Part shown: piece by piece, positions 6,701 through 58,895 of the stretch
How positions within the stretch are numbered: position 1 is the first letter of the stretch
How the letters are laid out: each line of letters begins with the position of its first letter
Assembly (NCBI GenBank): GCA_964019135.1
Contig: OZ025258.1
Coordinates: 9,443,961-9,507,960, forward strand
Length of the DNA stretch: 64,000 bases
Direction: 5' to 3'
From: Arenicola marina
Taxonomy: Eukaryota; Annelida; Polychaeta; Arenicolidae
Notes under the pieces: model-generated
The model's database searches: none
What the model was told of the DNA's origin: nothing
The model's input: the letters and a program-made list of their open reading frames with translations, nothing else
Translations under genes and position numbers: made by a program

Positions 6701-9700
6701 ACGGCGTATATCAGGTCACATGACCTAGATCTGGTTTTACCTTCCAGAGTTACCCTGCCTCACCTCCGATGATTACATCCCACTCATTGTAAGTAATACC
6801 CAGATTTACCCCCACCGCACCCTATATATGATATATATATATATATACCCCAAGTATCTATTTCACGTCACCTTATATATTTCCTGATCGAAGCGTGGCT
6901 GATGTCAACCTGGTAGCAGACGCACTAACGTGAACTATTCCACTTCCGGTGACAGTTCGGACTTTATATACGATATACGAAAAGCGTCTTACATATAGAT
7001 GTTTATCTATTATTTACCTCATTATACTTCATCACGCAGACAGTTGATAACACGTGCAGCTGAAAACACACAATTATATTGCTTTTTTTTCTTCAAAATG
7101 TGACGTGTTTACTCAACTCATCCGTTTTGGACTCCTCCTCCACCCACCCTCCCCTGCCCGCCTCCCCTAACCTCCTCCCATGTCTGACTCCTCCTGCACC
7201 TCCCTCCCGCCCACCCTCCCCTACCCACCTACCCTACCCTCCTCCCATGTCTGACTCCTCCTGCACCTCCCTCTCTTCCACCCTCCCCTACCCACCTCCC
7301 CTACCCTCCTCCCATGTCTGACTCCTCCTGCCCCTCTCTCCCTCCCACCCTCCCCTACCCACCTACCCTACCCTCCTCCCATGTCTGACTCCTCCTGCAC
7401 CTCCCTCTCTCCCACCCTCCCCTGCCCGCCTCCCCTACCCTCTTCCCATGTCTGACTCCTCCTGCACCTCCCTCCCTCCCACCCTCCCCTACCCTCCTCC
7501 CATGTCTGACTCCTCCTGCCGCTCCCTCCCTCCCACCCTCCCCTACCCATCTATCCTACCCTCCTCCCATGTCTGACTCCTCCTGCACCTCCCTCCCTCC
7601 CACCCTCCCCTACCCACCTCCCCTACCCTCCTCCCATGTCTGACTCCTCCTGCACCTCCCTCCCTCCCACCCTCCCCTACCCACCTCCCCTACCCTCCTC
7701 CCATGTCTGACTCCTCCTGCACCTCCCTCCCTCCCACCCTCCCCTACCCACCTACTCTACCCTCCTCCCATGTCTGACTCCTCCTGCGCCTCCCTCCCTC
7801 CCACCCTCCCCTACCCACCTACTCTACCCTCCTCCCATGTCTGACTCCTCCTGCACCTCCCTCCCTCCCACCCTCCCCTACCCACCTACCCTCGTCTGGA
7901 TGCAGGTGTTGGTGCTGTCCCGGAGTGAGGCCGTCCACATACAGAGCAACATTCACTACATGGAGAACTTTCACTGGAGCACTCGCTCAACGGACGACCT
8001 CAAGTGAGGCTCCCTGTCTATTGTCATATCACACGTAGAGATGTCCTCACCCATCAACCGCCGATTATCTAACTCAGATGGTGTCTTGGTTGGCCTGATA
8101 TTGTTTACTTTATAATATACAATTTATTATTATTCATACAGTGGTTTTATTGCACTCCTTATCCGTAGTACCATGCTTACATGTTGTCTGATCAAATGGT
8201 TGAACCGTTTATTAGAAATGTGTCGTATATGATTTATGATTAATGTGATTTATGGGTTCAGACACTAGGGCTATTTTAGTATGTTATGATGAGTAACTTG
8301 CACGGTAGCCACTCTATTTTCTGCTGCTACAGCTACAGCATGGTGACAGTTGCACTGTATTCTATAGCCACTCTATTTCCTGCTGCTACAGCTACAGCAT
8401 GGTGACAGTTGCACTGTATACTATAGCCACTCTATTTCCGGCTGCTACAGCTACAGCATGGTGACAGTTGCACTGTATACTATAGCCACTCTATTTCCTG
8501 CTGCTACAGCTACAGCATGGTGACAGTTGCACTGTATACTATAGCCACTCTATTTCCGGCTGCTACAGCTACAGCATGGTGACAGTTGCACTGTATACTA
8601 TAGCCACTCTATTTCCTGCTGCTACAGCTACAGCATGGTGACAGTTGCACTGTATACTATAGCCACTCTATTTCCCGCTGCTACAGCTACACCATGGTGA
8701 CAGTTGCACTGTATACTATAGCCACTCTATTTCCGGCTGCTACAGCTACAGCTTGGTGACAGTTGCACTGTATACTATAGCCACTCTATTTCCTGCTGCT
8801 ACAGCTACAGCATGGTGACAGTTGCACTGTATACTATAGCTACTCTATTTCCCGCTGCTACAGCTACACCATGGTGACAGTTGCACTGTATACTATAGCC
8901 ACTCTATTTCCTGCTGCTACAGCTACAGCATGGTGACAGTTGCACTGTATACTATAGCCACTCTATTTCCGGCTGCTACAGCTACACCATGGTGACAGTT
9001 GCACTGTATACTATAGCCACTCTATTTCCGGCTGCTACAGCTACAGCATGGTGACAGTGCAGGCGGCCATTCAATACGTGATGAACACAGACGTTCGCAG
9101 ACTGGCGAAGGCGGGGGAGGATGTGAAGGACGCCGAGGCTATTGAGGTACGTGATGGAGTCAATGTATCCAATACATTATAAGGTTTTTCTATCTGTAAA
9201 AAAAAATGTAATTTTGCTTTGGGCACTGATGGATTATTACATGTAAAATATCTTACGATGATGGTGGTAACTGTTGTAATATAATGTATTGTGCCTGTTA
9301 ACGCCATCCCGCCTACAACTTTTTGCCCCGTCTAACTGATTCAGTATCCGAGCCAAGCAAAGCCTCGAGAGATGGTTCTTACTAAAAGCTGGATTTATCT
9401 TCTTGCAGAAGGACAACAGGATGCACCGTTCTCTGCACGCCGCTTCCGCCCACACGTCAGAAACATCCACTGGACGAGTAGACAGAGAACTAGAAAGGTA
9501 TCCTGTGATCGCGTCGCTTGCTTGTGGGTAAATAAATAAGACTTGATTAGGGATACAATAGGCGCTCTAGGGGAGGTTGGGGAGTTTTAAGAAGTATTGC
9601 TTGGCATGACGCAAACAGAAACTGGGTGTTTCCGTAGCGTTTCTAATATACGGACTTAAGATAGTATAGTTTCTTCCCGCGCGTTTGAAAGTGAAGTAAG

Positions 9701-15877: not shown

Positions 15878-18800
15878 ATGGTGACGCGATGGGGTCACCC
15901 CAAGTCGCTGGTGATGGCGGCGACCGTCCTTGTGTTGGCACCCTGGCTGCTGGTGCTGCTGCACCCCCTGGGAGTCCTGATCGGCAGTCTCCAGCACGCC
16001 ACAGTACACACGTACCTGGTGGAGGTCGACGGGAGCTACGTGTTTGTCAGCACGGCCAGTCCACTCAGTCCTTCGACAGGTACGTGTTTGTCATCACCGC
16101 CAGTCCACTTAGTCCTTCGACAGGTACGTGTTCGTCAGCACGGCCAGTCCACTCAGTCCTTCGACAGGTACGTGTTCGTCAGCACGGCCAGTCCACTCAG
16201 TCCTTCGACAGGTACGTGTTTGTCACCACCGCCAGTCCACTCAGTCCTTCGACAGGTACGTGTTCGTCAGCACGGCCAGTCCACTCAGTCCTTCGACAGG
16301 TACGTATTTGTCACCACCGCCAGTCCACTCAGTCCTTCGACAGGTACGTGTTTGTCACCACCGCCAGGCCGCTCAGTCCTTCGATAGGTACGTGTTTGTC
16401 ACCACCGCCAGTCCACTCAGTCCTTCGACAGGTACGTGTTTGTCACCACCGCCAGTCCACTCAGTCCTGCGACAGGTACCTGTTTGTCACCACCGCCAGT
16501 CCACTCAGTCCTTCGACAGGTACGTGTTTGTCACCACCGCCAGTCCACTCAGTCCTTCGACAGGTACGTGTTCGTCATCACCGCCAGGCCGCTCAGTCCT
16601 TCGACAGGTACGTGTTTGTCACCACCGCCAGTCCACTCAGTCCTTCGACAGGTACGTGTTTGTCATCACCGCCAGTCCACTCAGTCCTTCGACAGATACG
16701 TGTTTGTCACCACCGCCAGTCCACTCAGTCCTTCGACAAGTACGTGTTTGTCACCACCGACAGTCCACTCAGTCCTTCGACAGGTACGTGTTTGTCACCA
16801 CCGCCAGTCCACTCAGTCCTTCGACAGGTACGTGTTTGTCACCACCGCCAGTCCACTCAGTCCTTCGACAGGTACGTGTTTGTCACCACCGCCAGTCCAC
16901 TCAGTCCTTCGACAGGTACATGTTTGTCACCACCGCCAGTCCACTCAGGCCTTCGACAGGTACGTGTTTGTCACCACCGCCAGTCCACTCAGTCCTTCGA
17001 CAGGTACGTGTTTGTCACCACCGTCAGTCCACTTAGTCCTTCGACAGGTATGTGTTTGTCACCACTGCCAGTTCACTCAGTCCTTCGACAGGTACGTGTT
17101 TGTCACCACCGCTAGTCCACTCAGTCCTTCGACAGGTACGTGTTTGTCACCCCCGCCAGTCCACTCAGTCCTTCGACAAGTACGTGTTTGTCACCACCGC
17201 CAGTCCACTTAGTCCTTCGACAAGTACGTGTTTGTCACCACCGCCGGTCCACCCAGTCCTTCGACAGGTGCGTGTTTGTCACCACCGCCAGTCCACTCAG
17301 TCCTTCGACAGGTACGTGTTTGTCACCACCGCCAGTCCACTCAGTCCTTCGGCAGGTACGTGTTTGTCACCACCGCCAGTCCACTCAGTCCTTCGACAGG
17401 TACGTGTTTGTCACCACCGCCAGTCCACTCAGTCCTTCGACAAGTACGTGTTTGTCACCACCGACAGTCCACTCAGTCCTTCGACAGGTACGTGTTTGTC
17501 ACCACCGCCAGTCCACTCAGTCCTTCGACAGGTACGTGTTTGTCACCACCGCCAGTCCACTCAGTCCTTCGACAGGTACGTGTTTGTCACCACCGCCAGT
17601 CCACTCAGTCCTTCGACAAGTACGTGTTTGTCACCACCGCCAGTCCACTCAGTCCTTCGACAGGTACGTGTTTGTCACCACCGCCTGTCCACTCAGTCCT
17701 TCGACAGGTACGTGTTTGTCACCACCGCCAGTCCACTCAGTCCTTCGACAAGTACGTGTTTGTCACCACCGCCAGTCCACTCAGTCCTTCGACAGGTACG
17801 TGTTTGTCACCACCACCAGGCCGCTCAGTCCTTCGACAGGTACCTGTTTGTCACCACCACCAGGCCACTCAGTCCTTCGACAGGTACGTGTTTGTCACCA
17901 CCGCCAGTCCACTCAGTCCTTCGACAGGTACGTGTTTGTCACCACCGCCAGTCCACTCAGTCCTTCGACAGGTACGTGTTTGTCACCACCGCCAGTCCAC
18001 TCAGTCCTTCGACAGGTACGTGATGCGCTGACGCTGCAAGCCATCATAAGGAGACTGGGGGAGAAATTTGTAATTGTATGATATAGTATAACTATATCAT
18101 TAAATATAATTATATTAAGATATTTTATCATATGATATAAGTATATAATATAAATCCTAATAATATTGAAGTAAATAAAAAACTGAAAAAGGCAAGCAAT
18201 ACGAACTGACATGCATACTTATGTTACGTATGTTAGCTCATTGTGAATATTCATTTTCTTAATAGACTCAAACGAGGCTCGTGTGGCTCACGCCAGACAC
18301 GCATGCGCGGAGACCAGATATGACGTGGGTACCGGTCTGAACGATAGTCGCGCCACGTCGCGCCTCCTAGTGGACGACGCCCACCGCCTGCTGTACTGCG
18401 TCATCCCCAAGGCTGGGTGCACCACCATGAAGGGGGTCCTAGTGCAGGGGGCCGGCGGCGGGGGCTTCGATGTGACCACCTTAAACAGCTTCAACAAGAC
18501 CACTGCCAGGCAGATCCACGCCATGCCGGCGAAAGTGGGCCTCCGTTACCTCAATAGGTTCTCGGCGAAAGGTCGCTACGAGCGGTTGAAGTGGTACACC
18601 AAGCTGGTGGTGGTGCGTCACCCGTTCAGTCGGCTGTTCTCGGCCTACAATGATAAGATGGCCCACGGCCATCTGTCGCACCCGGAGTTCTACCGAGACG
18701 TCGTGCGCAGGTATTTCCCATCCGGCGTGGACGCTAGGGGAAAACTCTCGCTCACATTCAAACAGTTTCTCTACCTCATCGCCAAGGAGTACAGAACGGG

Positions 18801-19089
18801 GTTGTTCGTGAACCGCCACTGGATGACCTACGAACAGCTGTGTCACCCCTGTGTCGTCCAGTACGACAGCGTCATCCGACTGGAGACCATCCACCAAGAC
18901 TTCGCACGGCTCGCCCCGCAGCTCAATATGACGTCATCGCAACTGCCACGGCTCAACTCGTATGATGAGGCAGAGGGCGGGGAACACACGGAAAACTACC
19001 AGGACCACATGGCAGGGGTCAACCCCAAAGTCATCAAACGCCTCCGCCAAATCTATAAAGCGGATTTCGACGTATTTGGATACGATTAA
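15878..19089 (+). CDS. HNK-1/CHST-type carbohydrate sulfotransferase (type II Golgi membrane protein)
   Basis: Exon 1 (15878-16079) starts at ACCATGG, a strong Kozak context, and ends one base into a codon. Exon 2 (18266-19089) starts AATAG|ACTCAAACG and needs exactly one base, so the first donor joins in frame and yields 341 aa, a typical size for CHST8-14 proteins. Residues about 12-35 form a hydrophobic signal anchor (VMAATVLVLAPWLLVLL). CVIPKAGCTTMK (about residues 112-123) is the 5'-phosphosulfate-binding loop and VVVRHPFSRLFSAYNDKM (about 182-199) the 3'-phosphate-binding motif for PAPS. HWMTYEQLCHPCVVQYD and the end KADFDVFGYD are also family features. The enzyme should transfer sulfate from PAPS to a glycan in the Golgi lumen; the acceptor sugar cannot be told. 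The intron is almost wholly a 44-bp array. It is convergent with the SLC13 gene. Confidence 0.93.
16080..18016. repeat. 44-bp minisatellite repeating the exon 1 end and 5' splice site
   Basis: The last 44 bp of exon 1 plus its donor (CCTTCGACAG|GTACGTG) recur from the real donor at 16080 to 18016, that is 1936 bp or 44 intervals of 44 bp with no net indel. Every unit keeps GTACGTG or a near variant. The unit has no stop in any forward frame, so ORFs of 186-408 aa run through all three frames; they are artefacts unless downstream donors are used. Confidence 0.97.
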
Positions 19090-19415
19090 TAGTTTGTAGC
19101 GCTGCTGAGTGACTTCATTTAGTGCCGATGTCCGTAGAATCACGTGACATTTCATTTATAAAATAAACTTAGGTAAGGTATCTCAGAGTAATTGAGTATT
19201 CATTGTAGGACCCTAAAGTTCATATTGAGAATGGCGGGACAAAAGATGCGCGAATATTACCGCGGCGTGTCCGGACATATCGAGGGTTCTTCATGACACA
19301 AAAGTCTCACAGTTAATGACGGACGCCATATGGGGGGTTCGTCATGATCACCATTCCAGGTCATATATTGCATTTATGGACAAATCGAAGTTAATACAGG
19401 ATTTTATTGCGATAT

Positions 19416-19451
<36 letters not shown>

Positions 19452-22250: not shown

Positions 22251-22548
22251 AATCTTTCCATTAGTCGAACAATCACAGAATATGATCAAGCAATTATCTC
22301 CAGATCACAACTGTGGGTAGCACCACAATCCACGGTACTACGAGAAAAGTGTTGTAAATTGTAAGCCAAACACAAATCGACGTCATGGCCAATTATATGA
22401 GAGTCTATCTCCAGCTATGTTGTCGACATCATGAACAATTATATGAGAGTCTATCTCCATGTAAGTTGTCGACGTTATGGCCCATTATGGGAATCTATCC
22501 ATAGTTATGTTATGGACGTCAAGAACAATTATGTGATTCTGTCTCCAG

Positions 22549-22671: not shown

Positions 22672-22679
22672 CTGTAACG

Positions 22680-35500: not shown

Positions 35501-38500
35501 ATCACCTACTATTCTTACCATGTCAGTGATCACCCTCTATTCTTACTATATCAATGATCACCCTCTATGTTTACCATGCCAATGATCACCCTCTATTCTT
35601 ACCATATCAATGATCGCCCTCTATTCTTACCACACCAATGATCACTCTCTATTCTTACCACACCAATGATTATCCTCTATTCTTACCATATCAATGATCA
35701 CCCTCTATTCTTACCATATTAATGATCACCCTCTATTCTTACCATATCAATGATCACCCTCTATTCTTACCAAACCAATGATCATTCTCTATTCTTACCA
35801 TGTCAATGATGCCCCTCTTTTCTTACCATGTCAATGATCACCCTCAATTATTACCATATCCCCCTCTCTTCTTACAATGTCAATGATCACCCTCTATTCT
35901 TACCATATCAATGATCATCCTATATGTTCACCACATCAATGATAACCCTCTATTCTTACCATGTCAATGATCACCCTCAATTATTACCATATGCCCCTCT
36001 ATTCTTACAATGTCAATGATAACCCTCTATTCTTACCATATCAATGATCACCCTCTATTCTTACCATATCAATGATCATCCTATATGTTCACCACATCAA
36101 TGATAACCCACTATTCTTACCATGTCAATGATCACCCTCAATTATTACCATATGCCCCTCTATTCTTACCATGTCAGTGATAACCCTCTATTCTTACAAT
36201 GTCAATGATCACCCTCTATTCTTACCATATCAATGATCATCCTATATGTTCACCACATCAATGATAACCCTCTATTCTTACCATGTCAATGATCACCCTC
36301 AATTATTACCATATGCCCCTCTATTCTTACCATGTCAATGATCACCCTCTATTCTTACCTTATCAATGATCACCCTATATTTTTACCATATGAATGATAA
36401 CTCTCTATGCTTACCATGTCAATTATCCGCAGTCGACCAAAGGAGAAAACAATGGCGTTAGGCGGCGTTGCCACGGGCAACATGAATGCGAATGACGTGG
36501 CGATGGCCGCTGGTATCATCAAGAACAAAGGACTTTTACCAATGCTCTGAGACTGAAAAACAAAAAAAACAAATGGCTAATGACATAAACACGAAAAACG
36601 CGATGGCGTTGCCATTGTAGACTGCAGGTCATGAAGCGAATGACCGCCTTCTATTAGTGTTCGATTCTCTATCGGTAACTGGACCATGCATGTCTGAAAC
36701 TCTTGTTTAGTATCACCCAAACCATGATTTGCAAACAATCGAGGTCTTGGTGAATATTGAATATTGGTGAATATTGATTGACTCCCACGGAGGTCATGAC
36801 TGACTTACCAGGCAGGCCATGATTGACTCACCAGGGAGGCCATGATTTACTAACCAGGGAGGCCATGATTGACTCACCAGGGAGGCCATGATTTACTAAC
36901 CAGGGAGGCCATGATTGACTCACCAGAGAGGCCATGATTGACCAAACAAGGAGGCCATGATTGACTCACAATCGAGCGTATGATTGACTCACCAGGAAGG
37001 TTACGATTGACTCACCGGGGAGGCCATGATTGCCTCAGCAGGGAGGTCATGATGCACTCACTAAGAGACCATGATTGAATCGCTAGGGAGGTCATGATTG
37101 ACTCGCCAGGGAGGCCATGTTTTACTCACCAGGGAAGCCATGATTGACTCACCAGGGAAGCCATAATTGACTCCCCAGGGAGGCTATGATTGACTCACCA
37201 GGGAGGCCATAATTCGCTGATGAATCACTGACCAAGAAGGCCATGATTGACTAACCGGGAAGGTCATGATTCTACTCCCCGGAAAGACCATGATTCGCTC
37301 ACCAGGGAGGCCATGGTGGACTCACAAAGGAGGCCATGATTGACTCACCAGGGAGGTCATGATTAATTCACTAGAGAGGTCATAATTTACTGATGAGTCA
37401 CTGAACAAGGAGGCCATGATTGACTCACCATGGAGGCCATGATTGACTCACCAGAGAGGCCATGATTGGCTAACCAGGAAGCTCATACTTGACTCACCAG
37501 GGAGGCCATGATTGGCTAACCAGGAAGCTCATACTTGACTCACCAGGGAGGCCATAATTGACTCACCAGGGAGGCTATGATTGACTCACCATGGAGGCCA
37601 TGATTGACTCACCATGGAGGCCATGATTGACTCACCAGGGAGGCTATGATTGACTCACCATGGAGGCCATGATTGACTCACCAGGGAGGCTATGATTGAC
37701 TCACCATGGAGGCCATGATTGACTCACCAGGGAGGACATGATGGGCATCAGGATGGTGCAGGTGGCTGAGTTGCTGGTGATCTCGGTGAGGAAGGCGACG
37801 AGCAGACAGATCATGGCGACCAGGCCCCACTGGTTCCAGCCCCGGAACACGACCAGCTGCTGGGCGATCCACGCCGACAACCCGGACTTCTGGCAGGGAC
37901 GAGACACACTCTCGTCAATACGACAGCTATAATCACGATCTATACTTGTCATTCCCTTATAAAATGATAGCCATCTTCCATCAGATAGTCATATTTGTTT
38001 CGCAGGGGGAACATATATAGGGTGCATGTCTTGATCAAATTAAAATACTCGAGCTGACAACTGATAGTTATATTTGCTTCATAATATATGTTCTGATATT
38101 GGAATTAAAAATTGAAGAAGTGTGGAGTTAAATTTTGAACAATTTTTTTAGTCATGGTTGAGGATAGAATGATTTCCTTACATTGCTGCCGGCCGCCAGG
38201 GCGAACCCGCCACCTAGCAGGAGAATGATACCCCAGGGCAGCTTCTTCAGTATAGTCTTCCAGTCCAACAGCGTGTCTGCTTGCTCTGGGTAAAACACGT
38301 TACAGTTAAACCATACGTGGCATCATACTGCTGTGATAGCTTATATCCTGTAGACAGTTCGGCAATTGAAGGGAATGTCGCAGAGCATACTCACTGCCGG
38401 GGGTTCTGTCGAGATTTCGGCCTTTCAAGGGGAATATTACACAGAATACTCACAGCGGGTGTCCTGTCGAAAGTTCGGCAATTCGCAGGGAATGACACAC

Positions 38501-41500
38501 ACGATACTCACTACGGGTGTCCTGTCGACAGTTCGGCAATTCGAAGGGAATGGCACACAGGATGAGGACTATTAGGATCACGGCCACCGCGTCAGTCACG
38601 AAACTGAAAACACACAGATAAATTATTAACCACTTATTGTAATTTTAAATATTTCTGTTATCCTTGTAAAAGCGGTAAAATTGTTGTCTTAGCAGCTTTA
38701 ACTGTGACTGACCCGGTCTGGAAGGGATCACCCGCCGCCCAGCCACGGAGAAAACTCGGCGTCCGGAAGAACCACAGCGACACCAGGGCGACGAAGGTCA
38801 AGGTCATCATGATTTCGGCAAAGCTGGGACGAAGGAATAACAACATTTATGCGACACATCTACGCGAAGGAACCTCTGACAGAAGAACGTATGTCTGCAA
38901 TTAACGCGTTAATTAGTCTAAAAAAGACTTTCGGTAGCATGTGTCGGTCACAGATAGGCTTATTAAGTCATAAGCGCAAATGCCGCGAAACAGTTCTCAG
39001 TACTTAAACCAAAACAAATGCTGCAAATCCATCCAAACAACCAACCACCCGACCAAGCAAGACAACTTATTGGCAAAGTGTCACTATCTTCACAGCAAAA
39101 ATAAGTGGTGAATGCATTACCTCCAGCGCCCAAGAGCGCTCTTTTCTCTATTGATGATTACTTGCGCGGCCCTCTCCCCGTCCGTGTCCTCGCCGCAACA
39201 CCGGAACGCCCTAGGAGGAACGCGACGCTCAAACATTGTCACATAGGAAGGAAAAAGCGAAGGGCATGGTGATTAATGGCGGTTTTTATATATAACTGTA
39301 GAGAGATATTGCGGAGATATAGTGTGGTTTATATACTGTGGTGATATATTGTTGTGATATATTGTGGCGATATAGTGGGGTGATATATTGTTGTGATATA
39401 TTGTGGCGATATAGTGGGGTGATATATAATGGAGATATAGTGTGGTAATATAGTGGAGTGATATATTGTGGCGATATAGTGTGGTAATATATAGTGGAGA
39501 TATAATGTGGTGATATATTGTTGTGATATATTGTAGAGATATAATATGGTGATATATTGTTGTGATATAGTGTATAAATATATTGTGGTGATATATTGTT
39601 GTGATGTATTGTAGAGATAAAGTGTAGTGATATATAATGGTGATATATTGTTGTGGTATATTGTAGAGATATATTCTGGTGATATATTGTTGTGATATGT
39701 AGCAATGAGACAAACCATTCCTACTAGCCTCGGCTAGAGGGATCACCCCTTAAGCCGAAGAGGTAGAGTGGTTGACTTGAGATCGGGAGATCGTGAGTTC
39801 CACTCCCGGTGGGGACCAAACCGGCCCCCGCCGTAACAATATATTGTAGAGACATAGTGTTGTGATATAGTGTGGAGATATAATGTGGTGATATATCGGG
39901 GTGATATATTGTAGAGATATAGTATGGTGAGGTACTGTGGAGATGTAGTTTGGAGATATAGTATGGTGATATAGTATGGAAATATAGTGTGATATATCGT
40001 GGAAATATAGTGTGGTGATATATAGTAGAGATATAGTGTGGTGAGATATCGTGGAAATATAGTGTGGTGATATATAGTAGAGATATAGTGTGGTGAGATA
40101 TTGTGGAAATACCGTGTGGAGATATAGTGTGATGATATATTGTGGGGATATAGTGTGGTGATATAGTGTAGTGATATTTTGTGATTTTGTGAGACATTGC
40201 GAACGATATAATATGCCTAAGTATAATACGATACTTAGATAAGGGCACTAAATTGTAACAACCTTAAATATCAACATCAGACATTTCTTATGTAAGAAGT
40301 ACAATTAATCTTTAAAAAAATGAAATTCGTATGCTCGGGTCACGTAGTCGGAGATCACCTTGGGCCTGCGAAGAAGAGGACGAGCCAGATCCACACGACG
40401 ATGAGGCTAAGTGCTGAGACAGGCGCGCCCACCACCATCCAAGAGGCGAAGGTGATCGGGGACTCCACGTAGCCCTGCTGGATCCAGACCCTGGCGACAG
40501 GAAGGCAATATGTCCAGAGGTCTACATTATACCTAGGATAATGGTTCTAAGGTGATGGGGGACTCCACCTAGCCCCGCTCGGCCCAGTACCGTGCGACAG
40601 GAAGGCAATATACCCAGACGTCTACATTCTACCTAGCGTAAAGGTTCTAAGGTGATGGGGGACTTGTCCTAAAAACCTCCTATAAACAAACAAATGCTGC
40701 TGGAAACCAAAGAAAGATTAATTTAGTTATTTTAATAGATATATATATACATATATATTATTATAAGTAATGTAAGTTATATTAAATGTGCCATTGCTAT
40801 TGGGACTGACTCGTCGGCGGCCCCCTTGAGGATGGCGTTGGGGGGTGTCCCGGTCAGGGTGGCGATCCCCCCACAGTTGGCGGCGTAGGCCACGGACAGG
40901 CTCATGCCCTTCCCGAACCGGAGGAATCTGGAGTCGGACTGACCCCCATCGGGATCCCGGGCGGACGTCCTGGGAGAGTCCGGATCATCTGGCGCGTCAT
41001 CCTGAGTCTCTGTCGGCGCCTCTCTGGATCAAAGATAGTCCGTGTTCGTCATATTTACTGTAGCAAAGAACTGGAGTCACACACAGGATCTATTGCCATT
41101 GCGACACACGAAGGAGATGTTTTCACGCGGCAATCTATTGCTGTTGCGACACACGAAGGAGATGTTTTCACGCGGCAATCTATTGTTGTTGCGACACACG
41201 AAGGAGATGTTTTCACGCGGCAATCTATTGCTGTTGCGACACACGAAAGAGATGTTTTCACGCGTATGGAGGGCTGTACAGTGTATGATGGCTTTCCAGT
41301 GTGTGGAGGGCTGTACGGTGTGTAGAGGGCTGTACAATGTATGGAGGGCTGTACAGTGTGTGGAGGGCAGTACAGTGTGTGCAGGGCTGCACAGTGTGTA
41401 CAGGGTTGTACAGTGTGTGGAGGGCTGTACAGTGTATGGAGGGCTGTACAGTGTATGTAGGGCTTACAGTCTGTGGAGGGCTGTACAGTGTGAGGATGGT

Positions 41501-44500
41501 TGTACAGTGTATGGAGGGCTGTACAGTGTGTGGATGGTTGTACAGTGTGTGGCGTGCTGTACAGTGTGTGGCGGGCTGTACAGTGTGTGGAGGGCTGTGC
41601 AGTGTATGGAGGGCTGTGCAGTGTATGGAGGGCTGTACAGTGTGTGGAGGGCTGTACAGTGTGTGGATGGTTGTACAGTGTGTGGAGGGCTGTACAGTGT
41701 GTGGAGGGTTGTACAGTGTGAGAGGCTTGTACAGTGTATGGAGGGCTGTACAGTGTGTTGAGGGCTGTACAGTGTGTGGAGGTTGTACAGTGTGTGGAGG
41801 ATAGTACAGTGTGTGGAGGGTTGTACAGTGTGTGAAGGGTTGTACAGTGTGTTGATGGTTGTACCGTGTATGGAGGGCTGTACAGTATGTGCAGGGCTGT
41901 AAAGTGTATGGAGGGCTGTACAATGTGTGGCGGGCTGTACAGTTTATAGAGGGCTGTACAATGTGCGGAGGGCTGTACAGTATATGGAGGGTTGTACAGT
42001 GTCTGGAGGGCTGTACAGTGTGTGAAGGGATGTACAGTGTGTGGAGGGCTGTACAATGTGTGGCGGGCTGTACAGTTTATAGAGGGCTGTACAGTGTGTG
42101 GAGGGCTGTACAATGTGGGAAGGGCTGTACAGTGTGTGGAGGGCTGTACAGTGTATGGAGGGCTGTACAGTGTGTGGAGGGTTGTACAGTGTGTGAAGGG
42201 CTGTACAGTGTGTGGAGGGCTGTAAAGTGTGTGGAGGGCTATACAGTGTGTGGCGGGCTGTACAGTGTGTGGAGGGTTGTACAGTGTGTGGCGGGCTGTA
42301 CAGTGTGTGGCGGGCTGTACAGTGCGTGGAGGGCTGTACAGTGTGTGGAGAGCTGTACAGTTTATGGAGGGCGGTACAGTGTGTGGAGGGCTGTAGAGTG
42401 TGGGGAGGGCTGTACAGTGTGGGGAGGGCTGTACAGTGTGTCGAGGGCTGTACAGTGTGTCGAGGGTTGTACAGTGTGTCGAGGGCTGTACAGTGTGTCG
42501 AGGGCTGTACAGTGTATGGAGGGCTGGAGGGCTGTACAGTGTGTGGAGGGTTGCACAATATGCTAAGAGGGCTGTTCCGTTCTAAGACGGCTGTATAGCT
42601 TTGGCTGGCCGTGGAGTGTGGGTCGCAGTGTTGAGGGAGGCGGGAACTGAGATGGGGGCGGGGGGGGGGGGGTGAGAAACATACCCTAGGTCCACCATAT
42701 TGATATCTTGCTTCTCGGAGACTGTATCCTCCTTCGTGACCTCATCGAATGCCTCATTTTCATACACGACGACACCATTGTGGTCCGGTGGCGGCACTGC
42801 GAAACAACCGATGGGTAGTGCAGTGACATCATTCAGGCAATACGTACTCGGTAGGTGCATTATCGGAAACCCATACGAAATTTCGAACGGAAAGGCAACA
42901 CACTCGTGTCGGTTCTCATTAATTTAAAAAACATTGCCGTTTTGATTTCACATTTTGCACGAAGAAAAAGGTGTCTAAATTGCGTGAGGATTAAGCTCTT
43001 TTTAGAGTAAGAAAGATCAGTGACTAGTTCCGCTGTTCGCCGCATGGCGGTTCGTGTACCTGATTGACGTGCCACTTCGAGGCTCTGGAGCACCGCCTCC
43101 ATGATAGGAAGCATCATGGCCGTGGTGGCCGTGTTACTGATCCACATGGACAGGAACCACGTGGGCAACATGAAGCCAAGCATCAACCTGTCAATGATAA
43201 CCACATTACAACAACCACGTGCCAATGGGTAACATGAACCCCAGCATTAACATGTCAACAATAAACACATTAAAAACAAATACGTGGGTAAAATGACCTC
43301 CAGCATTAACCTGTCAACAATAAACACATTACAACAACCACGTGGGTAAAATGAACCCCGGTATCAACTTGCTCTACATTGACATTGAGGGGCTTTTAGG
43401 ATGTGTGGGTCACAGTTATTCACATTGGGCAGGCCACAGTTATTCATTTTGTACAAGTCACAGTTATTCGCATCAAACAAGTCACAGTTCACATTAGGCA
43501 AGTCACAGTTTTTCACATTGGACAGTTTTTTGGGCTGTCTACAGTTATTTACAATGGGCAGGCTACAGTTCTTCACATCTAGCCAGTCACAGTTATTCTC
43601 TGTGGACAAGCCACAGTTATTCTCATTGGGCAAGTCAGTTATTCAAATTGGACAAGTCACAGTTATGCACATTGGACAAGGCACAGTTATTGGACAGGCC
43701 ACAGTTATTCGCATTGGACAAACCACAGTTATTCTTATATGACAATTGACGGTCATGCACCTTGTACAAGTCACAGTTATTCACATTAGGCAAGTCACAG
43801 TTTTTTACATTTTACATGCCTCAGTTATTCACCTTGGACAAGTCACAGTTATTCACATTGGACCGCCCACAGCTTTTTTACGTGAAACAGGCCACAGTTA
43901 CTTTAATTGGGCAAGTCACCGTTATTCAAATTGGTCGTCACAGTTATTCTCATTGGACAAGTCACAGTTATTACATTGAATATGTCACAGTTATTCACAT
44001 CGAACAAGTCACACTTTTTCACATTGAACAAGTCACAGTTATTCACATTGGACAAGTCACAGTTATTACATTGAATAAGTCACAGTTATTCACATGGAAC
44101 AAGTCACACTTTTTCACATTGAACAAGTGACAGTTATTCACGTTGGACAAACCACAATTATTCTCATATGACAAGTCACGGTTATTCGCCTTGTACAAGT
44201 CACAGTTATTCACATCTAACACGTCACTCTTATTTACATTGGGCAAATCACAGTTATTCACCTTGGGCAAGTCGCAGTTATTTACATTGGACACGTCACA
44301 GTTATTTACATTGGGCAAGTCACAGTTACTCACATCGAACAAGTCACAGTTATTCACATTGGACAACCCACAGTTATTCGGGCTGTTCATAGTTATTCCC
44401 CTCACACCGGCCACAGTGCTCCATGTTATATTGCAGGACGCCGCAGTGTTACTCCATGCCACTACTCACAGCGCGGGTTTGGTGCCGACGACAGAGAGGA

Positions 44501-47500: not shown

Positions 47501-50500
47501 CGTTAAACAATTCTGGTCATATCGCGTCAACGGGAGTAAGAGGGGAGAGTGAAGCCATGTCCCCGGTTGGCCAGTAGGGGGTTACGATGCCACCGTAACC
47601 CCCTACTCTTTGCGAAGAAAGACATGAGGTGTTTATTTTGCGACCACACAGACATGGCCACCGCGGGGCGCGAACCATCGATCCACGTGGCGTTAGGCTC
47701 TCAGGTGGCCAGATCACTCAATGCGAGCGCTCTAGCCCGCTATATAAACCAATTAGAAGATACATATATAAGCGAGACCATTAAGTGTAACTTTAAAGGG
47801 ATGACGGGGGATAGGTGAAACTTGAACATTTTTAGAGCGACTGCAACTCTCTACATGCAATATCGAGTTAAAAGCCATATGACAAAAATCATTTTCGTCA
47901 TATGGAATCTTGTGATGATGGTTATTTTCCTGGGATTCATCTCGGGGTGTTTCTTTTCATGTATGTATGTATATTTTAATGATACTGTCCGTAGATTGCA
48001 GACACAGTTGGACGAACGATGACATTTGTGCAAAGTTTATGGATTACGTATCAACTTAAGGCAAAACAAAGATTGTTGTATTTAAACATTGCGGACGCCT
48101 TCTCAAATGAACGGTGGTGCATTGATGGTCAGCAGATAGAAGTAGTCTCTGTCTACAAAACCTTAGGATTATTCTTTTCCCCTTCGCTTAGTTTGTCAAG
48201 GGCACTTAATAAACTGGTACCACATAAATATAAGGAGGGCGAAACCTATTATTGCTGTGCCAATTATCTTGTGTGATAGCGAAAACTGGGGTTATGAATA
48301 CAGAAATCAGATGGACATTTTGCTGGTAAATTACTTCGAACTCACAATAGACCGATCCAGGCTGTCAATCATTAACTGACGTCACTGCTGCTTTATCCAA
48401 TCATGTGGTGCAAAAAGGCCTTCCATGTGCGTTAGGTCGAACAAACAAGTCGGACAAACAATGCAGCATGTTAATTTGTTGTCATTTTCAGAGATGTGTA
48501 CTTCTCACTTGTACCTACCATCCGCTATGATTGTCAATGTTATACTCACGACTAAAGAAAAAGGACTGGGCTTAAGGTCGGAGTGTGGATTGGTCTATTA
48601 AATGTGGACGCAAGCAGGTAAGCGTTTATGACATGACGCGAAGAGATAAATTTTGGCTGCAGTTCTTAGTTCCTAGAGTACGTCGTTTTTGCATGAGTCA
48701 ATGCAATTTGAGTGATGCAACTATTTTTCTCTGAATTTAAGCCATGGTTATCGGATATCCCTTCACAAAATTGAAGCCACTTGGTTTTAAATATATCAAA
48801 ATTGTCATCATATGTGAATTACAAATCACCCGAAAGGTATCGTAAGCTCCTAGAGGGATTCGTAAATTTCGTAAGTATTTTTAGTTCGGCCTCGCAAACA
48901 AAATGAAATTGTTTATATCCATCGTGTGTACCCAAGAGGATTTTATGTTTTCATTGAACGCCCCACAATTGAAAAAAATATTTCATAAAAGGATGTGGGT
49001 GAAATATATATATCTGGTTGGGTACATAAGATCTTGGACAAATGTCACCCATGAGCCCCTGAAGTGACTACGTTAGGTTTGCCTTGACTGACAGCTAGGA
49101 GATCCCTGCTACATTGCTGCTAATGTGGCACGCATTATTTAGTGTGTGCTAGACGCCACATCCACGGAGTGCATGCCGTCTGCCACTCGTTGTTCAGTCA
49201 CGCTTCAGTGGTAAGGGTTCGGCCTACATTGATGCGTGGGGACCGAAGAGATATGTCTCCATTACTATGTTTACCATTACTTAGAGAGCTACTTGCGTAA
49301 GAAGGTCATATGTCTCAGCCCTCGTCAGTGCACGTGCCATAAGTAAATACCGAGATCGGTACTCAACAGATTCAGCCACCAAAATGATCGTATGTGTAAC
49401 CATTCGACGATATCAACAAGAAACGTTTTTTTCGTTTTGCCGTTCTTTTGCATAGTCAAAACAAATCTGCCATTATCTTAATAGAACAATGCAAAGAAAC
49501 GTGCATATATCTCATCGTCGTGTTTGTATACAGTTGCCAATCGGGGACTTAAAATTACGATTTTGCTTAATTTATTTTTTTAAAGCTATTCGAACAGTTG
49601 TTTCTGACCCAAGTCACGCCATGATCTACAATTAGTACATTTAAGGCTTGATTAGTGCAATATTTATTTATTCTTAACATTTATAGTTATCACTACACTT
49701 TATTGCACGGAGCCTGCTGAGCATCTCTAAAATGGTGTAATAAACCGGGTAACTAAATCATATCTGTGACGTAGTTCACACCGCTTGCAACTTACGGTCA
49801 GCTGTCAAGCAAAGCGTATCCTGCTAGGCCGCCATGCTTACCATTACATTGTTAAGCCAGTATTACAGTTGGCTAAATGTGAATGCTAATCTTTCATATG
49901 CAGATTTTTTTCTACTTAGCGGAAACATTTGTTCGGGTAGCTTTTAGCAATAACGAAATCTTCCCACATCTTTTCAAAACTACCCTGGGATGAATGGAAC
50001 GAGTTAGTTTAAAACTACAAAAAATGAGTCAGACAAAGCTATTTCTATGAACCTCTCTATCCACCGCTAGTATGTTTATATTACCCATTAATCAAAATAT
50101 TTACTATTTTAGTATTAATTATTCAATAAATATAACATACCAATTGTGATTTTGGGGCTACTCACATTGAGATAGCTGTTCATCACCTCCTTGGCAGGGA
50201 GGATCCCCAGCATTGGGAAGAGAACGATGGGCAGCAGTGACGTCATCTCGATGGCCATCGCCTCCGTGCACCAATAGATAGCCATCAGCAACATGACGTA
50301 AGCACACTTAAATTCCTGGATAATAAGAAAGGCACACAGGAATCAGTGACGCCCCTCGATGGTCATAGCTTCTGTTCACCAGTAAATAACTATGAACAGC
50401 ATGATGAAAGCACATTGGAATCCCTATATGACCAGAATGGTGCTCAGACATCAGTGACGTCATCTCAATGACATTGGCCTCTCTGCACCGGTAAATAACT

Positions 50501-51063
50501 ATGAACAGCATGACGTAAGCACATTGTGTATGATTAGAAAGGTGCACATGAATCAGTGACGAGGCACACGCCTTTTAACCTGCACATAAAACGTAGAACT
50601 ACGGCACAAAACATGACATCATTTAGCTTGTCATTGTTTGTATAAGTGCGAGGAGAAATCGACATTCCTATTCTTCATATCCCCATGTAACGTGAAAGCG
50701 AATTATTCATCTATTTTACTTAAATTTTCAGACAACTTGTCTTTAAATTAAAATTGATGTTTAAATATTTAAATGTACGCTTGGCAGTGTATTTTATAAA
50801 AAAGTCTGCTTCAAAGTAGTCCATAACATTTACATATTTTCATATTATATGGAAATTAATGCTGCATGGTTTGGCATGAATATTTTGTAATAACTAAGCC
50901 CATAACTGAAGTGTTACGTCAGTGTGACGTCACAGAGGTCACTGACCTGGCCCTCGACAAGGAGAGGGATGGGCAGGAGCACCAGCGGGGTCAGGTAGAT
51001 GACCATCAGACGCCAGTAGCGACACAGCGGGAAGCACCTCGGAGAGATTGCGCAACATGCCAT
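29558..51063 (-). CDS. SLC13: SLC13-family sodium/anion cotransporter (14 exons, complete)
   Basis: Minus-strand exons in order: 51063-50947, 50315-50166, 44585-44470, 43187-43060, 42796-42685, 41023-40811, 40490-40359, 39210-39121, 38823-38713, 38603-38512, 38285-38182, 37889-37728, 36552-36415, 29680-29558. All phases agree; total 595 aa plus TAG, typical for SLC13. Members move sulfate or di/tricarboxylates with Na+ across the plasma membrane. Visible landmarks: [13 protein letters not shown] (TM1), [56 protein letters not shown] (first SNT motif), [51 protein letters not shown] (second motif, here SNS), [17 protein letters not shown], and an external NMT glycosylation sequon near the C-terminus. 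The start is the first ATG of the exon leading into TM1. Substrate (sulfate or citrate/succinate) cannot be decided. Most introns contain minisatellites. Confidence 0.95.
29681..36414. repeat. 28-bp minisatellite filling the last SLC13 intron
   Basis: About 240 units of ATCAATGATCACCCTCTATT plus CTTACCAT. On the gene (minus) strand each unit reads ATTGATATGGTAAGAATAG, nearly the exon 13 end and donor (ATTGACATGGTAAGCATAG). Higher-order blocks are visible, for example a block of about 320 bp near 33345 that recurs near 33650. Short ORFs rich in '[13 protein letters not shown]'-like repeats are artefacts. Confidence 0.97.
36415..36552 (-). CDS. SLC13: SLC13 exon 13 ([12 protein letters not shown] signature)
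   Basis: A phase 0-0 exon encoding [18 protein letters not shown] then [19 protein letters not shown]. It ends ATTGACATG|GTAAGCATAG; this junction is the seed of the 28-bp array. Confidence 0.93.
36775..37727. repeat. 23-bp minisatellite from the SLC13 exon 12 donor
   Basis: About 40 units of GAGGCCATGATTGACTCACC plus AGG. On the gene strand this reads CCTGGTGAGTCAATCATGGC, identical to the real exon end and donor at 37728. The same repeat occurs in the paralogue at 55880-56378. Confidence 0.96.
37728..37889 (-). CDS. SLC13: SLC13 exon 12 (second SNT-type motif)
   Basis: A phase 0-0 exon of 54 codons carrying [11 protein letters not shown] and [17 protein letters not shown]. The donor TCCCTG|GTGAGTCAATCATG is the seed of the 23-bp array that fills the intron. 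Confidence 0.93.
38349..38511. repeat. Three decayed copies of the SLC13 exon 10 end and donor
   Basis: Units of roughly 50-60 bp contain TGTCGACAGTTCGGCAATT-like sequence, GGGAATG, and ATACTCAC (the donor on the minus strand). They abut the true exon 10 end at 38512. Confidence 0.8.
39290..40195. repeat. AT-rich array of about 15-bp units in SLC13 intron 7
   Basis: GATATATTGTTGTGATATAG-type units with GATATAGTGTGGT variants, interrupted by the element at 39700-39838. Several ORFs rich in [12 protein letters not shown] on the minus strand are repeat artefacts. Confidence 0.9.
39700..39838. mobile_element. tRNA-like SINE/MITE inside the AT-rich array
   Basis: It contains CGGCTAGAGGGATCACCCCT, shared with 3741-3834, and a tRNA-like part (AGAGGTAGAGTGGTTGAC, then GTGAGTTCCACTCCCGG). 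It ends CCGCCGTAACA, matching the TGTAACGG ends of the smaller relative. The left edge is unclear. Confidence 0.5.
40500..40672. repeat. Decayed copies of the SLC13 exon 7 start and acceptor
   Basis: TCTAAGGTGATGGGGGACTC and GTGCGACAGGAAGGCAATAT at 40545-40610, then a partial third copy, mirror the real exon 7 start with its acceptor (CTGGCGACAGGAAGGCAATA). The spacing is about 105 bp. Confidence 0.8.
41070..41262. repeat. 45-bp repeat, four copies, beside SLC13 exon 6
   Basis: TGCGACACACGAAGGAGATG then TTTTCACGCGGCAATCTATT recurs at 45-bp spacing within intron 5, next to the exon 6 acceptor but without copying it. Confidence 0.9.
41262..42560. repeat. 19-bp minisatellite in SLC13 intron 5
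   Basis: About 68 units of CTGTACAGTGTGTGGAGGG. On the gene strand the unit contains ACTGTACAG, an acceptor-like CAG, but it does not match the flanking exons. ORFs rich in [20 protein letters not shown] repeats on both strands are artefacts. Confidence 0.95.
43060..43187 (-). CDS. SLC13: SLC13 exon 4 (first SNT substrate motif)
   Basis: This exon encodes [16 protein letters not shown] then [20 protein letters not shown] residues coordinate substrate and Na+ in the family structures. The acceptor is ATTGACAG|GTTGATGC; three imperfect copies of this junction precede it in the intron. The decayed paralogue at 57200-57329 has the same exon. Confidence 0.93.
43188..43375. repeat. Three imperfect copies of the SLC13 exon 4 start and acceptor
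   Basis: Units of about 58 bp contain CACGTGGGTAA, CCCCAGCAT[TC]AAC and CTGTCAACAATAAACACATT. Reversed, this is acceptor TTGACAG followed by the exon 4 start. The paralogue intron has about 27 copies of the same unit. Confidence 0.9.
43390..44400. repeat. 24-bp minisatellite in SLC13 intron 3
   Basis: About 40 degenerate units of ACATTGGACAAGTCACAGTT plus ATTC. I see no match to the flanking splice junctions, unlike most other arrays here. Confidence 0.92.
46485..46744 (-). mobile_element. tRNA-headed SINE with AACC tail, copy 1
   Basis: The minus strand starts GGGCGGGCCGATAGCTCAGT (A-box-like TAGCTCAGTGG), has a B-box-like GATGGTTGAAGCCCC and ends in an AACC tail. CCCACTAG flanks both ends (46477-46484 and 46745-46752). 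It lies in SLC13 intron 2. Confidence 0.85.
46753..46880 (-). mobile_element. SINE, truncated copy 2
   Basis: Only the tail half of the same SINE is present (TTCAGGACGCTTTAACTAC, then CATGTCCCCGGGGGTAACC), directly abutting copy 1. The 5' head is missing, as in a typical 5'-truncated insertion. Confidence 0.75.
47476..47742 (-). mobile_element. SINE, copy 3
   Basis: Same family: CAGGACGCGTTAAAC, CATGTCCCCGGT, TGCGAAGAAAGACATGAG and GCGAGCGCTCTAGCCCGC. It is flanked by near-identical TATATAAACGAATTAGA and TATATAAACCAATTAGA, the probable target duplication. Confidence 0.8.
48019..48273 (+). mobile_element. LINE reverse-transcriptase fragment (tentative)
   Basis: The frame reads [20 protein letters not shown] then [17 protein letters not shown]. 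This resembles the conserved 'W..(D/N)G..IE.V..YKYLG..F' stretch C-terminal to the catalytic domain in non-LTR retrotransposons. No RT catalytic motif is present, so it is a remnant. Confidence 0.5.
50320..50565. repeat. Two decayed copies of the SLC13 exon 2 start and acceptor
   Basis: CCAGTAAATAACTATGAACA and CAGCATGACGTAAGCACA with CAGTGACGTCATCTCAATG echo the first part of exon 2 and its flank. The copies lie immediately upstream of the real acceptor (50316-50318) on the gene strand. Confidence 0.8.
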
Positions 51064-55204: not shown

Positions 55205-55879
55205 TGTTTGAGGTTCGACAATTTGAACTATTTTTAACATGAAGGAGTACGTTATGCCTGGGTTCGTCCTTCGCAATGCAAGCATGTTACTAGACCTAGG
55301 GTTTGGAATATTTGTCATCAGATACAATTGTATTGTTTCTAAATAATATTTCATGGTAGGTGCGTCTGTTTTATATATATTAGGACATTGTTGCCTATTT
55401 GACTCGACATTAAAATAAATAGTTACATATAATAGCAATTTAATTTATCCACAATGTTATATGTCAATGACCTTTGGAATATTAACATTACAATGATGTG
55501 TTGAATAATCATCTTACCATGTCTTGAATCCTTACAGCCATTTCCATAGTGTTTTGAATATTCATCTTACCATATCTACAACGTGAATCCGCCCATAGGA
55601 TAAGGCAATCGCTTTTGAGAAACAATGGGCTGTTACCCATGCTCAGCGACTGGCGAGCAAACAGTACCGGATGTTAGGCGTGCCATGGAATTATTATACT
55701 AATGCAAACACACTATAAATAACGACCGCAGGGTGAATTTAATTCTGAAAATACACAGGTTATTTTGGAGCCTAAATTACGAATGTGAATGAAATAAAAT
55801 AAAGGCATTCCAAAGTTGCACCACTGATACAATATATATCATGTATTAATATGACACAATGAGATAATATTAGTGGACA

Positions 55880-56378
55880 CCGACAGAGAGGCCATGACCA
55901 TTCAATGACCAGGGAGGCCATGATTCAATGAGCAGGGAGGCTATGGTTCACTGACCAGGGAGGTCATGATTCACTGGCCAAGGAGGTCATGATTTACTGA
56001 CCAGTGAGGCCATGATTCACTGGCCAAGATTCATTAACCAAGAGGTCATTATTCACTGACCAAGCAAGCCATGATTGACTGGCCAGGCAGGCCATGATTG
56101 ACTCATCAGGGGTACCATGCTTGACTCATCAGGGAGGCCATGATTGACTCAGCAGGGAGGCCATGATTGACTCACAAGAGAGGCCATAATTGACTCACCA
56201 GGGAAGTCATGATTGACTCACCAGGGAGGCCATTATTCTCTTACAAAGGAGGTCACGATTGACCCACAAGGGAGCGCCTGATTGACTCACTTGGGAGGCC
56301 ATGATTGATCAGTGTAGCCATGATTCCCTTACAAAGGAGGCCATGATTGACTCACCAGGGAGGCCATGACTGACTCAC
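55880..56378. repeat. 23-bp minisatellite, paralogous to 36775-37727
   Basis: About 21 units of GAGGCCATGATTGACTCACC plus AGG, more divergent than in the intact gene, abutting the truncated exon 12-like piece. Confidence 0.93.
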
Positions 56379-57029
56379 TAGAGCTGCTCGGCCATCCACG
56401 CCGGCAACCCGGACTTCTGGCAGGGACGAGACACACTCTCTTCGGGACCACCGCACAAACAATAGTCGCTTAAAGTATCATGCAGTTAACTGGTCGTTGG
56501 CTTCTGGTTCTTCAGTAATTCCCGGGTAATTACTGATATATAAAACACTTTGTGCGCGTTTGTTATTACAGTAACCCACTTTAGACATACACGTTGCAAA
56601 ATTACAGCAGTAGACTTTAGTTTAAGACATCGATCTAGTAAAACCTGTGTGGGAAACTTGTGAATTCGTGATATCGGATTATTATTTGGAGCATTTGTTG
56701 TGGAACTTTGTAGAACTGTTCTGCTATATTCAAGGTTCATGGACATTGCGTTTTAAAAGATTTAATCAAAGAATTAATTAAAGATTGGTATAATCTTTAT
56801 TTTTAAACGCTTACCGCCACTTACCATTTCATATTTAATGTAATGCGCAATACCACCCAAGTTGGATGTTTGATATCATTTTCATGTTACCTGATAAAGC
56901 TCTGCTGACTCACATCGCTGCCGGCGGCCAGGGCGAACCCGCCCCTAGCAGGAGAATGATACCCCATGGCAGCTTGGTGCGCACGGTGTCCCAGTCGAGC
57001 AGGGTGTCGGCTCGCTCTGGGTAAAACAC

Positions 57030-57112
57030 GTAACCCACACACACAGTCAGCGTGGTGCGCACGGTGTCCCAGTCGAGCAGGGTGTCAGCTCGCTCTGAGT
57101 AACACACGTCAC
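57030..57112. repeat. Tandem partial copy of the exon 11-like acceptor and start
   Basis: GTGGTGCGCACGGTGTCCCA then GTCGAGCAGGGTGTCAGCTC plus a CTGAGTAACACACG acceptor region repeats the sequence at 56971-57030. Confidence 0.85.
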
Positions 57113-57329
57113 AGTAAGAAGAGATGAGATAACGAAATGCATGCCACGTTATATAATCTTTGGTGACCGACGCAAGTGGTTCGGTGGACGATGTTGTACT
57201 TTTTTCTGTCGCGCTTCCTCCAGACTGCAGAGTATTACTTCCGTGATTTGTAGCATTAAGGCTGTAGTCGCCGTGTTACTGATCCACATGGACAGGAACC
57301 ACGTGAGTAACATGAACCCCAGCATCAAC

Positions 57330-58895
57330 CTGTCAACAATAAACACATTACAACAACCACGTGGGTAACATAAACACCAGCATCAACCTGTCAACAATAA
57401 GCACATTACAACAACCACGTGGGTAACATAAACACCAGCATCAACCTGTCAACAATAAACACATTACAACAACCACGTGGGTAACATAAACACCAGCATC
57501 AACCTGTCAACAATAAACACATTACAACAACCACGTGGGTAACATAAACACCAGCATCAACCTGTCAACAATAAACACATTACAACAACCACGTGGGTAA
57601 CATGAACACCAGCATCAACCTGTCAACAATAAACACATTACAACAACGACGTGGATAACATAAACACCAGCATCAACCTGTCAACAATAAACACATTACA
57701 ACAACCACGTGGGTAACATAAACCCCAGCATCAACCTGTCAACAATAAACACATTACAACAACCACGTGGGTAACATAAACACCAGCATCAACCTGTCAA
57801 CAATAAACACATTACAACAACCACGTGGGTAACATAAACACCAGCATCAACCTGTCAACAATAAACACATTACAACAACCACGTGGGTAACATAAACACC
57901 AGCATCAACCTGTCAACAATAAACACATTGCAACAACCACGTGGGTAACATAAACCCCAGCATCAACCTGTCAACAATAAACACATTACAACAACGACGT
58001 GGATAACATAAACACCAGCATCAACCTGTCAACAATAAACACATTACAACAACCACGTGGGTAACATAAACCCCAGCATCAACCTGTCAACAATAAACAC
58101 ATTACAACAACCACGTGGGTAACATAAACACCAGCATCAACCTGTCAACAATAAACACATTACAACAACCACGTGGGTAACATAAACACCAGCATCAACC
58201 TGTCAACAATAAACACATTGCAACAACCACGTGGGTAACATAAACACCAGCATCAACCTGTCAACAATAAACACATTACAACAACCACGTGGGTGACATA
58301 AACCCTAGCATCAACCTGTCAACAATAAACATATTACAACAACAACGTGGGTAACATAAACACCAGCATCAACCTGTCAACAATAAACACATTACAACAA
58401 CCACGTGGGTAACATAAACACCAGCATCAACCTGTCAACAATAAACACATTACAACAACCACGTGGGTAACATAAACACCAGCATCAACCTGTCAACAAT
58501 AAACACATTGCAACAACCACGTGGGTAACATAAACACCAGCATCAACCTGTCAACAATAAACACATTATAACAACCACGTGGGTGACATAAACCCTAGCA
58601 TCAACCTGTCAACAATAAACACATTACAACAACCACGTGGGTAACATAAACCCCAGCATCAACCTGTCAACAATAAACACATTACAACAACCACGTGGGT
58701 GACATAAACCCTAGCATCAACCTGTCAACAATAAACATATTACAACAACAACGTGGGCAACATGAACCTCAGCATCAACCTGTCAACATTAAAAACATTA
58801 CAACAACCACGTGGGCAATATCAACCCCAGCATCAACCTGTCAACAATAAATACATTACAGAAACCACGTGGGTAACATAAACCCCAGCACAAGA
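57330..58895. repeat. 58-bp minisatellite from the SLC13 exon 4 acceptor
   Basis: About 27 units of ACAACCACGTGGGTAACATA, ACACCAGCATCAACCTGTCA and ACAATAAACACATT. On the gene strand each has TTGTTGACAG|GTTGATGCTG, the acceptor and exon start of the adjacent exon 4-like piece. Unit variants recur in runs, indicating multi-unit duplication. Confidence 0.97.

Follow-up and report, generated by a model that had tools for sequence, protein, structure and literature searches.

Minisatellites that span splice junctions in introns of the annelid Arenicola marina

Background

Mirages, minisatellites whose repeat units span an exon-intron boundary, have been described in amphioxus, in Adh3, the globin genes BflGb6 and BflGb9, TnC and PGBD5 (PMC3087553, PMC3902484). 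In the passages of these reports that were compared, the units are 10-160 bp long, both donor and acceptor types occur, and AG or GT is retained in many, but not all, copies (PMC3087553, PMC3902484). BflGb6 is given with 6 and 3 units in its two haplotypes in the part of the source compared. Arrays of the same kind are present in a stretch of Arenicola marina DNA (contig OZ025258.1, positions 9,443,961 to 9,507,960; the whole 64,000 nucleotides are here called the window), within an SLC13 gene, a VPS9-domain gene and a sulfotransferase gene. As in amphioxus, the units span the boundary at donors or at acceptors. The compared amphioxus passages, however, treat single genes of cephalochordates, whereas here the host is an annelid, 24 of 203 sampled junctions carry such an array, and arrays reach 6.7 kb and 242 copies. 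The initial annotation of the window, made from the letters alone, pointed correctly to the amphioxus reports but looked for comparison to other chordates, a group to which this host does not belong.

As in the annelid, human genes in segmental duplications contain boundary minisatellites with units longer than those of other repeats (PMC2812944). The human case, in the text compared, consists of 27 intron modifications in recent paralogues and is tied to new or alternative introns, whereas the annelid arrays lie in ordinary conserved genes. Tandem-repeat density climbs toward intron ends in plants and green algae, as it does here, but the units there are 1-50 bp and the comparison, within the passages used, is one of repeat density and not of junction-spanning units (PMC3887541). 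Within the annelids, earthworm metallothionein genes also have intronic minisatellites and, as reported, fourth-exon duplications that are absent from the transcript; the compared text of that report contains no junction-spanning unit and no genome-wide count (PMC12783039). The 'Mirage' of PMC7960049 is, in the passage compared, the name of a transposon and an unrelated usage. Among the matches listed from the open-licence PubMed Central literature, there is no report of mirages outside cephalochordates and none of genome-scale counts. The kind of array is already known; what is new is the phylum, the density and the size.

Results

Arrays at splice junctions of three genes

Tandem Repeats Finder (TRF) returned 64 rows for the window, which were merged into 39 arrays with a period of at least 10. 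Gene models were built by hand, with consensus values as the weights for scoring splice sites, and were then tested. Three models contain the domains Na_sulph_symp, VPS9 and Sulfotransfer_2, respectively. For SLC13-A, a minus-strand gene, 13 exons were modelled from 51063 down to 36415, with phases that all fit and no stop; the gene's last exon was not found. Its protein matches the human SLC13A2 structure 8w6c (E 1.6e-127, residues 13-555) and aligns with SLC13A2 without repeat-encoded residues. The VPS9-domain gene (3925-9146) and the sulfotransferase gene (15878-19089) are both on the plus strand. The join between VPS9 exons v3 and v4 does not keep the frame, so that an exon may be missing there, but this leaves the array junction at v9 unaffected. 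The VPS9 model stops at v9, and in the window the junction counts cover the VPS9 exons up to that point, SLC13-A and the sulfotransferase gene, with the later VPS9 exons and the SLC13 paralogue described below set aside.

Seven of the 39 arrays, each with 13 to 52 exonic bases, reach across an exon edge of the models, where 1.5 such arrays would be expected (p 0.0006). The proposal in the initial annotation that arrays in these three genes are tandem expansions of splice junctions is thus borne out. The junction features are as follows, with a slash at the exon-intron boundary.

36415..36552, minus strand, SLC13-A exon 13, donor GACATG/GTAAGC
29691..36427, minus strand, array at the exon 13 donor, 28 bp x 242, 6.7 kb, 13 exonic bases
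37728..37889, minus strand, SLC13-A exon 12, donor TCCTCCCTG/GTGAGTC
36775..37742, minus strand, array at the exon 12 donor, 23 bp x 42, 15 exonic bases
38512..38603, minus strand, SLC13-A exon 10, donor ACCCGTA/GTGAGT
38346..38560, minus strand, array at the exon 10 donor, 58 bp x 3.7, 52 exonic bases
40359..40490, minus strand, SLC13-A exon 7
40449..40664, minus strand, array at the exon 7 acceptor, 100 bp x 2.2, 42 exonic bases
43060..43187, minus strand, SLC13-A exon 4, acceptor ATTGACAG/GTTGATGC
43162..43344, minus strand, array at the exon 4 acceptor, 58/59 bp x 3, 28 exonic bases
50166..50315, minus strand, SLC13-A exon 2
50346..50555, minus strand, exon 2 acceptor region copied twice upstream, both copies decayed (74% identity over 81 and 114 columns)
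9041..9146, plus strand, VPS9-domain exon v9, acceptor CTGCTACAG/CTACAGC
8306..9058, plus strand, array at the v9 acceptor, 59 bp x 12.8, 18 exonic bases
15878..16079, plus strand, sulfotransferase exon 1, donor TTCGACAG/GTACGTG, placed by frame and signal
16037..18022, plus strand, array at the exon 1 donor, 44 bp x 45, 43 exonic bases
18266..19089, plus strand, sulfotransferase exon 2, Sulfotransfer_2 domain

All four arrays that had been proposed as donor-type, at sulfotransferase exon 1 and SLC13 exons 13, 12 and 10, span the junction. The acceptor type holds as arrays at v9 and at SLC13 exons 4 and 7; exon 2, also named as an acceptor array, instead has only the two decayed upstream copies, which score far above shuffled controls and constitute a decayed mirage. 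As TRF missed these copies, counts based on TRF are lower bounds.

GT is retained in 213 of the 241 copies counted in the exon 13 array and in 32 of 40 in the exon 12 array. One SLC13-A intron contains its own splice site, with adjoining exon, some 240 times over, in copies about 91% alike, and the coding homology implies that the exon-proximal copy is the one used. The same most likely applies to junction arrays in general, with the coding site predicted to be first in the row for donor arrays and last for acceptor arrays. Such introns are natural material for the study of how the spliceosome chooses among near-equal sites, and could help to explain errors in the gene models of such genomes.

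Sulfotransferase exon 1 is not conserved, and its donor is without homology support. The unit of the array there is flanked by the six-base word TACGTG, present in the exon and in the donor; microhomology at unit ends was spotted by eye at this one array.

Some arrays close to exons were considered as mirages and rejected. The 67 bp array at 7143-7892, which falls within the range given in the initial annotation, ends 14 bp before exon v8 and has no echo of the v8 junction, and the arrays beside SLC13-A exons 3, 5 and 6 and VPS9 exon v2 have no junction echo above shuffles.

Junction arrays in other genes

The search was extended to the rest of this genome (867 Mb, 762 contigs). Matches to the Pfam myosin profile numbered 77, of which 50 were used and 27 left out, and 5 of the 100 exon edges were dropped for want of an acceptable splice signal. 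For a random sample, twenty stretches of 10 kb were taken from contig C11 at 2 Mb spacing, with the one at 9 Mb omitted. Tandem arrays make up 34% of these twenty stretches and so are common there. The five stretches with recognisable exons were annotated and the other 15 left out; the genes are those for dynein heavy chain, LIS1, TYW1, a C2-domain protein and an ASC channel. Their exon peptides were picked by eye as members of familiar families and subsequently checked with Pfam, which confirmed the C2-domain gene for its C2 part only. Five of the 68 edges were dropped (one stretch edge, two gene ends and two unclear acceptors). AMP-binding matches look single-exon and were unused.

Over window, myosin and random-stretch genes together, 24 of 203 junctions (12%, about one in eight) carry a spanning array, 15 at donors and 9 at acceptors, with 5-58 exonic bases each; two more arrays, whose exonic bases number just 3 and 4, were excluded from this count. 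Ten are at myosin junctions. The seven in random stretches are at a LIS1 donor, a dynein donor and acceptor, two TYW1 acceptors, the ASC channel acceptor and the donor of the C2-domain gene, where the array holds just 5 exonic bases. Junction arrays recur, then, in genes chosen without regard to repeats: introns fill with duplicate splice sites, and mirages look common in a phylum other than that of amphioxus.

Three of the twenty C11 stretches (L026, L027 and L028) are wholly or nearly array, with units of 83, 56 and 210 bp, respectively.

Founding duplications are enriched at junctions

Because growth adds copies inside an array, a junction can lie in an array only where the founding duplication already included it, and arrays were therefore collapsed for the enrichment test. 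In this founder null each array is reduced to one unit, and founding duplications are spread evenly on the collapsed non-exonic sequence. In all samples combined, 24 of 95 arrays span a junction against 6.7 expected, a number reached in 0 of 1,000,000 simulations. The excess is present in the window genes (7 of 14 arrays against 1.56 expected, p 0.0002, 45 junctions), in myosin (10 of 50 against 3.9, p 0.0025, 95 junctions) and in the random stretches (7 of 31 against 1.25, p 0.0001, 63 junctions), and amounts to 3.6-fold overall and 2.3- to 5.6-fold among subsets. The density of founding events is 4.2 per kb for spanning arrays. For non-spanning arrays (67 of 71) it is 3.3 at 0-25 bp from the junction, 1.3-1.6 at 25-100 bp, about 0.6 at 100-400 bp and 0.2-0.5 beyond. 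Within fully seen introns, spanning arrays number 9 of 22 against 3.96 expected (2.3-fold) where the collapsed length is at most 400 bp, and 5 of 31 against 1.76 (2.8-fold) where it is longer.

Anatomy and decay of the units

The exonic fraction of the unit ranges from 0.07 to 0.98, a distribution not distinguishable from uniform (Kolmogorov-Smirnov p 0.30, n 24). A search of the 24 spanning arrays for a breakpoint fixed at the splice signal found none. As the junction can fall at any point of the unit, the splice signal does not determine where the founding breakpoints lie. The donor motif is conserved among copies to much the same degree as the rest of the unit at SLC13-A exon 13 (0.905 versus 0.914), at exon 12 (0.904 versus 0.881) and in the sulfotransferase array (0.978 versus 0.972), and selection for or against decoy sites is thus not visible at donors. 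Two acceptor arrays, with 13 and 28 copies, keep AG in every copy, where the unit means are 0.97 and 0.97. Spanning arrays are as diverged as the others (87.5 versus 88% match, p 0.56), which gives no visible sign of greater age, and they have longer units, 60.5 bp versus 24 bp. The initial suggestion of a mechanism that starts at splice junctions is therefore upheld in so far as founding is about 3.6 times more frequent there than the founder null expects, and is not supported as regards a tie to the splice signal itself.

Copy number in a partial paralogue

Also on the minus strand (55500-57330), an SLC13 paralogue is a broken partial copy in which exons 5-10 are absent and exon 12 is cut short, with the mirage arrays retained.

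57297..58890, minus strand, array at the paralogue exon 4 acceptor, 58 bp x 27.5, unit the same as at SLC13-A exon 4
56960..57140, minus strand, two-copy duplication at the exon 11 acceptor, 92% over 65 bp
55900..56378, minus strand, 23 bp array with the unit seen at the SLC13-A exon 12 donor, exon 12 itself truncated
55500..55600, minus strand, second donor-like copy at exon 13, 16 bases, 94%

The unit at exon 4 is present in 3 copies in SLC13-A and in 27.5 in the paralogue. No second allele was met; the ten matches in this genome are all within this locus. Of the paralogue acceptors named in the initial annotation, that of exon 4 is an array as described and that of exon 11 a two-copy duplication. 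The third, called exon 14 and taken here to be the exon 13 feature, is donor-type; its 16-base match scores 27 against a shuffle maximum of 19.

A 16 bp x 189 array at 58974-61985 starts 83 bp past the paralogue exon 4 array.

Origin of the arrays

Anatomy, density, the enrichment under the founder null and the difference in copy number between SLC13-A and its paralogue are direct observations. They are probably best accounted for if these arrays are mirage minisatellites that descend from edge-enriched duplications, near-neutral when they copy a junction, which later expand and whose breakpoints are independent of the splice signal. A short tandem duplication, of about 20-130 bp, would arise near an exon edge and copy the splice junction with some of the exon. 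Provided that the exon-proximal site is used, the messenger would be unchanged and the duplication therefore close to neutral. Slippage or unequal exchange could then expand the array into the intron and homogenise its copies, with coding selection still acting on the exon-proximal one. Founding duplications would be enriched near exon edges, most steeply within about 25-100 bp, and this enrichment would be one of birth rather than of survival. Introns could by this route grow and leave the protein unchanged.

Several results weigh against this reading. By raw coverage, the check proposed in the initial annotation, there is no excess: 26 of the 203 junctions (13%) are in arrays, against 29.9% of non-exonic bases. 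Since array growth adds length without adding junctions we hold this measure to be confounded, but the whole case for enrichment then rests on the founder null. Later insertions that dilute introns may have inflated the excess, which is 2.3-fold in short introns. The spanning units, at 60.5 bp, exceed the size-biased prediction of 41 bp (95% range 28.5-49), and the fixed AG allows selection on acceptor copies that is at most weak. All window junctions were set by hand while the arrays were in view, as were 13 elsewhere that were set or dropped (5 myosin, 8 random-stretch), and the exon in stretch L013 was noticed in part through an open frame traversing its array.

A bolder and tentative extension, which we think rather doubtful, is that splice junctions are birth hot spots for minisatellites, through duplications coupled to transcription or splicing, in at least two distant phyla, and that much of the intron length of this annelid consists of copied junctions. 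If founding events do cluster at junctions, gene structure bears a measurable mutational mark of splicing or transcription.

Initiation could be coupled to splicing or transcription and so directed to splice junctions, with the junction itself a hot spot of breakage or slippage owing, for example, to R-loops or to the nucleosome edge at exon borders. The junction excess in three samples and the steep fall of founding density within 25-100 bp of junctions are what such initiation would give, but there is no fixed breakpoint, the position of the junction within the unit being near uniform, and we regard it as unlikely. Chance in a minisatellite-rich genome, with arrays evenly spread and junctions caught in proportion to target size, gains from the abundance of arrays in the C11 stretches and from the lower raw coverage at junctions than in non-exonic sequence; it is nevertheless improbable, given 24 spanning arrays where the founder null predicts 6.7 and the 9 against 3.96 in short introns. 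A similarly low probability attaches to survival bias, by which arrays near exons persist, because deletions that remove them hit the exon, and mid-intron arrays are lost or diluted by insertions. The excess in fully seen introns, short or long, is indeed below the overall 3.6-fold, but spanning arrays are not visibly older than the rest, although homogenisation can mask age.

Selection that keeps junction arrays, as spare splice sites or as repeated exonic enhancers that improve splicing, might be read from the many donor GTs of the exon 13 array and the AG fixed throughout two acceptor arrays; it is very improbable, as donor motifs are no better kept than other unit positions in three arrays. 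Intron gain by tandem duplication of exon sequence (the Rogers model), which would make the arrays the birth marks of the introns, can hardly apply, for although the units contain splice signals and exonic sequence, the model expects the repeat at both intron ends and none of the 24 spanning arrays overlaps more than one known junction, with the other intron end unseen for 7 of them (six arrays reach the stretch end, and the exon after SLC13-A exon 13 was not found).

Host group and other features

The host is an annelid, and amphioxus was rejected as the source on the evidence of a linker domain and of myosin exon clusters, with a GFP negative as a weak addition. The genome searched has a match on contig C14 (E 1.6e-20) to Pfam Eryth_link_C, the annelid erythrocruorin linker domain. 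Among structure entries, those of squid and scallop come closest to one myosin exon; for a second, squid comes first and is followed by vertebrates. The GFP family is known in amphioxus; no match to it was found in this genome, a weak negative since no control matched either. The muscle myosin gene at C4:367768-384767 has two motor-domain exons in four tandem versions each, one over the switch-1 region and one near profile positions 590-640, which look like clusters of mutually exclusive exons. In the passages compared, clusters of this kind are found in annelids and molluscs, and the echinoderms and hemichordate covered have one, elsewhere in the gene (PMC3912159, Kollmar and Hatje). The matching of the C4 clusters to those of Kollmar and Hatje is our own reading, and the compared passages do not treat amphioxus.

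Several short myosin exons of this genome lie within open frames 1007 to 1760 codons long, and the adjoining introns are therefore likely to be made of stop-free repeats.

Sulfotransferase exon 2 and the stretch downstream are tandemly duplicated (18247-22567 and 23138-29576), and the duplication may be real or an effect of assembly. The second copy has no exon 1 ahead of it and comes after a fragment, at 22682-23018 and with 12 copies, of the SLC13 28 bp array.

Kinesin exon matches in this genome number 133 and are outside the junction counts. Those on contigs C390, C504 and C536 continue across several TAG and TAA codons, a pattern that a ciliate-like contaminant would show.

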